Assembly (NCBI GenBank): GCA_030432115.1
Contig: JAUIHY010000004.1
Coordinates: 1 to 39,003 of the forward strand
Source: Gammaproteobacteria bacterium
Lineage (GTDB): Bacteria; Pseudomonadota; Gammaproteobacteria; Xanthomonadales; Marinicellaceae
Reading direction: 5' to 3'
Length of the DNA stretch: 39,003 bases
In this document: piece after piece, positions 27,828 to 28,243 of the stretch
Layout: the number at the start of each line of letters is the position of its first letter
Numbering within the stretch: position 1 is the stretch's first letter
Translations under genes and position numbers: made by a program
The notes under the pieces: generated by a model
Told to the model about the DNA's origin: nothing
What the model saw: the letters and a program-made list of their open reading frames with translations, nothing else
The model's database searches: none

Positions 27828-27934
27828 AAAATGGCGGAGAGTGAGGGATGTATAAAAAACGTCCTGTTTTTTACCCCTTCGGGGCGCCTTCGGCGTGAAA
27901 AATCGTTCCAGACGATTTTTTTGAACCTCGGGAC
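27828..27934 (-). pseudogene. tRNA-Ser 3'-end fragment split by repeat copy B
   Basis: Positions 27828-27849 are a perfect 22-base direct repeat of 27987-28008, the 3' end of the intact tRNA-Ser (CCA, acceptor strand, 3' T-stem) plus a few flanking bases. After the repeat insert, 27921-27934 again resembles the T-loop and 5' T-stem of tRNA-Ser (TTGAACCTCG against TTGAACCCTCG). So a tRNA-Ser T-arm appears to have been split in its loop. The rest of the tRNA is not recognisable. Confidence 0.7.
27850..27920 (-). repeat. Four-hairpin repeat element, copy B
   Basis: H1 is 27853-27873 (TAAAAAAC/GTTTTTTA, loop GTCCT). H2 is 27874-27884 (CCCC/GGGG, loop TTC). H3 is 27885-27895 (CGCC/GGCG, loop TTC). 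H4 is 27898-27920 (AAAAATCGT/ACGATTTTT, loop TCCAG, 9 perfect pairs). The hairpins are in direct succession with almost no spacer. Same order and apices as copies A and C, with different stems. Strand given is that of the neighbouring tRNA-Ser. Confidence 0.85.
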
Positions 27935-27952
27935 TTCACCGTCACCATCCAA

Positions 27953-27992
27953 CATTTTTTAAAATAGCAAAGTCTTGCTGTTTTAAAAAATG
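27953..27992 (-). repeat. Long perfect hairpin at the 3' end of tRNA-Ser
   Basis: CATTTTTTAAAA (27953-27964) pairs with TTTTAAAAAATG (27981-27992). Inside it AGCAA pairs with TTGCT around a 4-base loop. The right arm includes two bases of the encoded CCA of tRNA-Ser. It may act as the tRNA's terminator, since a T run follows CCA directly, or as part of the repeat scar. Confidence 0.7.
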
Positions 27993-28081
27993 GCGGAGAG
28001 TGAGGGATTTGAACCCTCGATGGGCTTTTGACCCATACTCCCTTAGCAGGGGAGCGCCTTCAGCCGCTCGGCCAACTCTCC
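27991..28081 (-). tRNA. tRNA-Ser (anticodon GCT)
   Basis: Acceptor GGAGAGT/ACTCTCC, anticodon stem CTCCC/GGGAG with loop CTGCTAA (anticodon GCT), long variable arm typical of serine tRNA, T-loop TTCAAAT, discriminator G, encoded CCA. Next to csrA-alaS, as in E. coli. Both flanks carry partial duplicates of this gene joined to four-hairpin repeats. Confidence 0.97.
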
Positions 28082-28153
28082 GTTCTTCACAATGATTTTT
28101 TTACTTGCCATTGTTTACAAGTTACGGCGCTCCCATGGGAATCGCCTGACTTC

Positions 28154-28215
28154 GGGCTCCTGCCCTTCGCCCTTCGGGTCCGCTTCGCGGGGCTAAAATG
28201 TTCCAGACATTTTAG
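28154..28215 (-). repeat. Four-hairpin repeat element, copy C
   Basis: H1 is 28154-28165 (GGGC/GCCC, loop TCCT). H2 is 28170-28178 (CCC/GGG, loop TTC). H3 is 28180-28190 (CCGC/GCGG, loop TTC). H4 is 28193-28215 (CTAAAATGT/ACATTTTAG, loop TCCAG, 9 perfect pairs). On the tRNA strand H3 contains GCGAAGC, known as an unusually stable single-stranded DNA mini-hairpin. An extra palindrome (GGCG..TCCC-AT-GGGA..CGCC) lies just before it at about 28126-28145. Confidence 0.82.
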
Positions 28216-28219
28216 TCGT

Positions 28220-28243
28220 CCGCTCGGCCAACTCTCCGTTCTT
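28220..28243 (-). pseudogene. tRNA-Ser 5'-end fragment (24-base duplication)
   Basis: These 24 bases are identical to 28064-28087: the D-arm and 5' acceptor strand of the intact tRNA-Ser plus six bases upstream of its mature 5' end. The duplication therefore includes flanking DNA and is not a processed tRNA copy. It abuts hairpin copy C. Confidence 0.85.

Follow-up and report, generated by a model that had tools for sequence, protein, structure and literature searches.

What kind of sequence is a short repeat of four hairpins that recurs three times beside tRNA genes on a single gammaproteobacterial contig? We addressed this question in a 39,003-nucleotide stretch of DNA, hereafter the window, from an assembly of 303 contigs and 2.54 Mb. 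The original prediction described three copies, A, B, and C, with hairpins H1, H2, H3, and H4 in a fixed order and a common H4 apex, and both the sequence and its folding agreed with that description. Copy A, delimited by sequence and fold, lies at positions 276 to 352 of the plus strand (H1, 281 to 294; H2, 299 to 309; H3, 311 to 326; H4, 327 to 353). Copy B, delimited by sequence, lies on the same strand at approximately 27852 to 27921 (H1, 27854 to 27872; H2, 27874 to 27884; H3, 27885 to 27895; H4, 27897 to 27921), as does copy C at 28149 to 28216 (H1, 28154 to 28165; H2, 28170 to 28178; H3, 28180 to 28190; H4, 28191 to 28217). The apex of H4 is GTTCCAGAC in all three. In copy A, an internal mismatch interrupts the H4 stem (CTAAAATGT/ACATTTCAG), and it is visible in the letters of the original prediction itself. 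An Rfam search of the whole window at the gathering threshold returned tRNAs only. A covariance model matched copy A at 274 to 353 (66.4 bits), copy B at 27850 to 27922 (69.3 bits, with a right edge uncertain by a few T residues), and copy C at 28147 to 28217 (78.7 bits). The three copies were among the 18 seed copies of this model, so the independent evidence comes from other genomes.

All three copies are hosted by broken tRNA copies, a setting that the original prediction had missed. The T-loop is the site in two cases (tRNA-Arg for A and tRNA-Ser for B), and for C it is a tRNA-Ser D-loop. The host of copy A is a decayed minus-strand tRNA-Arg(TCG) copy (265 to 411, traced by direct repeats D1 and D2), which adjoins an intact minus-strand tRNA-Arg(TCG) gene (114 to 190, called by ARAGORN and Rfam) and is, in pieces, 91 to 92% identical to it; the intact gene, on whose 5′ side copy A lies, is presumably the source of this host. 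The junctions are TT at 274 to 275 on the left and C at 353 on the right. When the element was deleted from the locus orthologous to copy A in a sister species (L007, G013), ARAGORN again called a tRNA-Arg(tcg).

Copies B and C flank an intact minus-strand tRNA-Ser(GCT) gene (27991 to 28081, called by ARAGORN), with B on its 3′ side and C on its 5′ side. Left of copy B is the 3′ end of a tRNA-Ser copy, comprising the acceptor and T-stem strand (27828 to 27851, minus strand, direct repeat D1), with 22 nucleotides (nt) identical to the intact tRNA-Ser. Its right arm (27919 to 27970, minus strand) consists of TTGAACC and then a decayed inverted tRNA-Ser 3′ end with downstream sequence, an arrangement like that of the RtT units discussed below; inverted repeat I1 (27939 to 27970 and 27975 to 28006) is 81% complementary. 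This inverted arm is better preserved in relatives (loci L268 to L282) and is absent at copy A. Copy C is hosted by the D-loop of a tRNA-Ser 5′ fragment whose acceptor strand and D-arm (28220 to 28243, minus strand, direct repeat D4) have 24 nt identical to the intact gene. In most of the genus relatives examined (L268, L270 to L273, and L282), the T-loop copies are found 3′ and the D-loop copies 5′ of the intact tRNA-Ser, and several of these copies are near-exact tandem duplicates of about 161 to 215 bp.

The original prediction had proposed a covariance-model search as a check, and such a search revealed many further copies. At an E value of ≤0.01 per genome, the model was positive in 141 of the 321 gammaproteobacterial genomes searched; in a sample of 200 genomes from the phylum, 53 were positive. 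Metagenome assemblies make up many of these genomes. The whole genus was positive (18 of 18 genomes, with 1 to 31 copies each), and the source genome itself held six copies. The same four-part order was found in more than 100 genera, with the best E values near 1e-14 per genome. A nongammaproteobacterial family (f201; for example, G513, G517, and G498) supplied many of the positive genomes in the phylum sample and was rich in copies, with up to 23, and the highest numbers, 52 and 62, occurred in two genomes. Many of the 62 copies in the latter (G345; for example, L182, L190, L219, and L220) score alike, and those fetched share one larger palindrome, CCCTCACCCC...GGGAGAGGGGG, which was apparently multiplied as a unit.

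An exact-pattern scan of public genome contigs gave mostly chance matches and few genuine copies. BLAST searches of E. coli, plasmids, and phages with a Serratia copy as the query returned mainly the flanking 23S rRNA, along with genuine copies in Proteus and on Pantoea plasmids. Copies occupy the 23S-5S rRNA spacer in Serratia marcescens (L122, 835 to 912) and Proteus mirabilis (L152, 979 to 1056), and seven places match in the P. mirabilis record, all of them probably rRNA operons. On large Pantoea plasmids (L150, 1476 to 1554; L151, 1467 to 1546), the copies lie within a larger inverted repeat and are preceded by an extra hairpin with a loop of the TCCATG or TCCCTG type. We found no description of the standalone element in the openly licensed literature by name, topic, or sequence.

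The prediction that the stems vary and still pair held in other genomes as well. In an alignment of 110 matches from other genomes (A3; 105 distinct rows), 96.3% of stem cells were paired, and changes on both sides were found in 16 of 17 pairs. The covariation score was 0.599, against 0.163 in shuffled alignments and 0.06 to 0.10 when the pairing partners were slid, and double-sided changes numbered 394 cells in the 105 distinct copies versus 99.5 in shuffles. This alignment was fitted to the model and is hence biased towards the model structure; given the outcome of the slid and shuffled controls and the range of pair types, the covariation, which far exceeds chance, can nevertheless hardly be doubted. 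A short stem uniting the element ends (ACT...AGT) was considered and rejected, since its AGT side already lies within the H4 stem and the pairing is not independent.

The kinds of pairs bear on the level at which pairing is maintained. The internal stem pairs comprised 1,539 Watson-Crick, 8 G-T, 13 A-C, and 7 other pairs. G-U wobble thus amounted to 0.5% of pairs in element stems versus 7.2% in 99 tRNAs of the same locus set (P = 5e-28), a low count to which model-based detection may contribute somewhat. G-T and A-C pairs are about equally rare, so neither strand resembles an RNA strand, and the near-absence of wobble suggests that hairpins at the DNA level are the conserved feature. Stem pairing thus seems to be maintained in DNA. 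Of the two alternatives offered by the original prediction, a single-stranded DNA stage or a structured RNA, this result speaks for pairing at the level of DNA. The loops of both end hairpins keep TCC in most copies (nTCCnG in H1 and G[TC]TCCnG[AG]C in H4), which suggests that a single protein may bind both ends.

We characterized the target from 101 nonredundant insertion sites, drawn mostly from the best-scoring matches of each genome. Each element lies between a terminal TT of the left flank and an initial C of the right flank; at sites away from tRNA, the two T positions were each conserved at 82% and the C at 86%, with a weak G at position -5. Of the 101 sites, 37 resemble a T-loop, and 41 have an intact tRNA no more than 400 bp away. 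The tRNA T-loop target, GGATT^CGAACC, is strongly overrepresented: GAAC follows the junction C at 29 of the 101 sites versus 52 of 4,990 other TTC trinucleotides in the same loci (odds ratio [OR], 38; P = 2e-30). An intact tRNA is present in the locus at 25 of the GAAC sites; in every one of these the element runs antisense to it, and 19 of them lie on the tRNA 3′ side; a Pseudoalteromonas copy (L073) is in the sense orientation. D-loop and anticodon-loop insertions also occur, less often than T-loop insertions. A more general targeting of hairpin loops was considered and dropped, because 25 of 101 folded joined junctions fell in loops compared to 359 of 1,212 control TTC sites.

Insertion is clean, with neither target duplication nor terminal inverted repeats, in tRNA genes as well as in a transposase open reading frame. 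The element ends are A[CT]T...TGT, and an inverted-repeat match between them is no longer than 1 to 3 bases. Removing the element restored a tRNA callable by ARAGORN at 7 of 158 matches versus 1 of 632 control deletions. One tRNA-Ser copy (L282) carries both a clean T-loop and a clean D-loop insertion, and the joined copy is too decayed for an ARAGORN call. An element also lies in frame within an IS256/Mutator-type transposase gene (L158, 1501 to 1575), where it adds 72 nt, or 24 residues, at GDGALG^FW; the joined protein reads GDGALGFWAAL and is an uninterrupted PF00872 protein. Elements are also found within one another: in one genome (G021, L013), a copy is nested between H1 and H2 of another. 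The tRNA-Ser locus in that record (L013, 746 to 1400) has several pseudocopies with T-loop and anticodon-loop insertions, two of which hold nested elements. Head-to-tail arrays occur in two further genomes, with a 72-bp period at L365 (376 to 734; G235) and a period of about 68 bp at L373 (524 to 729; G224). Many copies have clearly spread within larger repeats or by tandem duplication and not by movement of their own. Among the copies that the analysis covered, neither a longer, gene-carrying form nor an insertion distinguishing near-identical strains turned up.

RtT RNA (Rfam RF00391) is among the known systems closest to the element. The tyrT operon repeats of E. coli have been familiar for decades and, to our knowledge, have had no explained origin. 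E. coli K-12 has four RtT units behind tyrT and tyrV, and each holds an antisense four-hairpin core at the T-loop TT^C. The core layout is TT^ACTC-H1-CCCTTCGGG-H3-H4-T^CGAACC, in the same orientation and T-loop position as the element, and three of the cores are alike, reading ACTC-AGCGC/GCGCT-CCCTTCGGG-GTTGCC/GGCAAC-CTCTCGC..GCTCGAG-T or nearly so. The TCC loops of H1 and H4 are lost in E. coli. With filters off, model R1 found four copies in the E. coli tyrT repeats (28.1, 28.1, 28.1, and 18.6 bits), and it also detected the element in most of 30 fetched RtT-matching loci. In the reverse direction, the RtT model matched element-carrying loci over its full length at 30 to 43 bits, below its Rfam gathering cutoff of 45 bits. 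Across the class, the RtT model matched 84 of 321 genomes at an E value of ≤0.1 and 19 of 321 above the cutoff; among 14 named control genomes it matched E. coli only, and in the source genome it found no match even at an E value of ≤1. The original prediction did not recognize the repeat as a named Rfam family, which is not quite accurate: the window copies fall below the RtT model, E. coli RtT holds a diverged version of the core, and many loci with the element are matched by the RtT model.

RtT-like units lie mostly 9 to 80 nt downstream of an intact tRNA-Tyr, -Gln, or -Ser in many families, and where the locus holds a tRNA, most units end like that tRNA's own 3′ end, with 16 to 20 of their 24 terminal bases identical to it. 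An RtT unit thus combines a tRNA 3′ end, the same end in inverted form, and the four-hairpin element. The modeled 130-nt RtT RNA and the element thus share the core, its orientation, and its T-loop position in the E. coli repeats (rttR), and differ in that the element core also occurs alone outside tRNA. Copy B fits the RtT layout, a core in the T-loop of a tRNA 3′ end located 3′ of an intact tRNA; copy A is in a T-loop on the 5′ side and keeps the whole tRNA body, and copy C, in a D-loop, has neither feature. The arm of the RtT closing stem (GGATGAGAACC) is decayed in copy B, and copy A has none.

Taken together, these observations are best explained by a nonautonomous mobile DNA element of about 65 to 85 bp, with RtT units deriving from decayed copies, a reading to which we assign a probability of about 0.62. 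Movement is suggested by the structure, the target, the clean junctions, the nesting, and the spread. A putative enzyme acting in trans would probably recognize the TCC loops of H1 and H4 and insert the element between TT and C; the target is not duplicated, and the element lacks terminal inverted repeats. The preferred site is the antisense strand of the tRNA T-loop (GGATT^CGAACC), with D- and anticodon loops used less often, and copies persist in tRNA duplicates adjoining an intact gene; we propose that the T-loop is the safe site used most often because the cell can do without a second tRNA copy. Within such duplicates, decay, tandem duplication with the tRNA 3′ end, and often the gain of an inverted tRNA 3′ end would yield the kind of RtT unit seen at E. 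coli tyrT. A speculative origin for the inverted arm is fold-back copying during replication. On the best reading, the RtT core is a form of the mobile element that has decayed or been domesticated. A broader version of this proposal is possible and decidedly more tentative: a distinct class of mobile DNA, consisting of a 70-bp four-hairpin element and a putative enzyme that reads folded DNA hairpins, may use the universal tRNA T-loop as a refuge across the Gammaproteobacteria and some others of the phylum and may be where a small group of tRNA-tail RNAs and the E. coli RtT repeats originated.

The main rival explanation invokes a functional structured RNA, an RtT-like noncoding RNA that is processed from tRNA transcripts, acts as a tRNA-end mimic or sponge, and needs the hairpins as RNA, with its spread due to tRNA duplication and vertical inheritance. 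In the E. coli tyrT operon, RtT does carry an RNA annotation, the position of RtT units behind intact tRNA-Tyr, -Gln, and -Ser genes and their possession of that tRNA's own 3′ end fit this idea, and the inverted arms and the adjacent GA motif are conserved. One paper mentions a tandem GA motif in RtT that has covariation support (PMC7657543). Such an RNA would explain the tRNA context, but not stems that pair by Watson-Crick rules with G-U nearly absent, nor copies within a transposase gene, other repeats, and one another. An intact tRNA is within 400 bp at only 41 of 101 sites, and the orientation, antisense at every T-loop site tested, is nevertheless sense in Pseudoalteromonas. We consider this RNA reading unlikely.

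The original prediction had suggested looking for a RAYT/TnpA-type or other transposase, and a second rival would make the element REP/BIME-like or IS200/IS605 derived, moved by a Y1 (HUH) transposase such as RAYT that recognizes single-stranded DNA hairpins. Products of IS200/IS605 elements have end hairpins without terminal repeats or target duplication, and the element resembles them in these respects. Y1 genes were also more common in element-positive genomes (84 of 141) than in other genomes (75 of 180; OR, 2.06; P = 0.0016), a weak co-occurrence. However, 57 of the 141 positive genomes, including the source genome, had no Y1 match at an E value of ≤1e-10. Among 20 Y1 loci, we found one clear element match (38 bits, L329), one weak match, and no flanking pairs; the Y1 genes inspected were flanked by other repeats, several with CTGACCC ends. 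No GTAG motif was present in the profile of the 101 insertion sites. Lagging-strand insertion was likewise rejected, with 32 of 72 copies in six single-contig genomes co-oriented with replication (P = 0.41, assuming a terminus opposite dnaA). The RAYT/TnpA link was therefore dropped, and we regard a Y1-mobilized origin as improbable. The least credible rival, that these are ordinary hairpins between genes (terminators or leftovers of tRNA processing, for instance) that look alike by chance, could draw on the location of copies in tRNA arrays rich in terminators and tRNA fragments, but we count it as already refuted by the E values near 1e-14, the order kept in more than 100 genera, the covariation, and the fixed TT^C.

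The repeat can be set beside several known systems. Like REP/BIME sequences and REPINs with RAYT, it is short, palindromic, mostly extragenic, multicopy, and gene-free; it differs in its four ordered hairpins, TT^C target, and tRNA preference, in the lack of GTAG, and in that no cognate RAYT was found at the 20 Y1 loci. MITEs are also short, nonautonomous, present at many sites, and often nested, whereas the element has neither terminal inverted repeats nor a target site duplication. With miniature IS200/IS605-derived elements, which have subterminal hairpins and transpose as single-stranded DNA, it shares hairpins near both ends, the lack of terminal repeats and of target duplication, and a fixed orientation to a short target. 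Those elements insert 3′ of a fixed 4- to 5-nt motif; the target here is conserved on both sides, with TT only (and a weak G at -5) on the left and C on the right, and there is no strand bias and no linked TnpA at the 20 Y1 loci. Rickettsia palindromic elements offer a parallel to the copy at L158, being short hairpin sequences that can occupy a coding gene in frame; they belong to an unrelated host group.

If the mobile-element reading is true, the E. coli tyrT repeats would be a decayed local form of a mobile element present in almost half of the gammaproteobacterial genomes sampled. The known mobile elements would gain one with an unusual target, a tRNA loop and TT^C, and a gene-free body of four hairpins, and the hunt for the mobilizing enzyme would become a defined task. 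It would also call for caution with tRNA pseudogenes, tRNA-tail small RNAs, and rRNA spacers of these bacteria, which may contain inserted mobile DNA.
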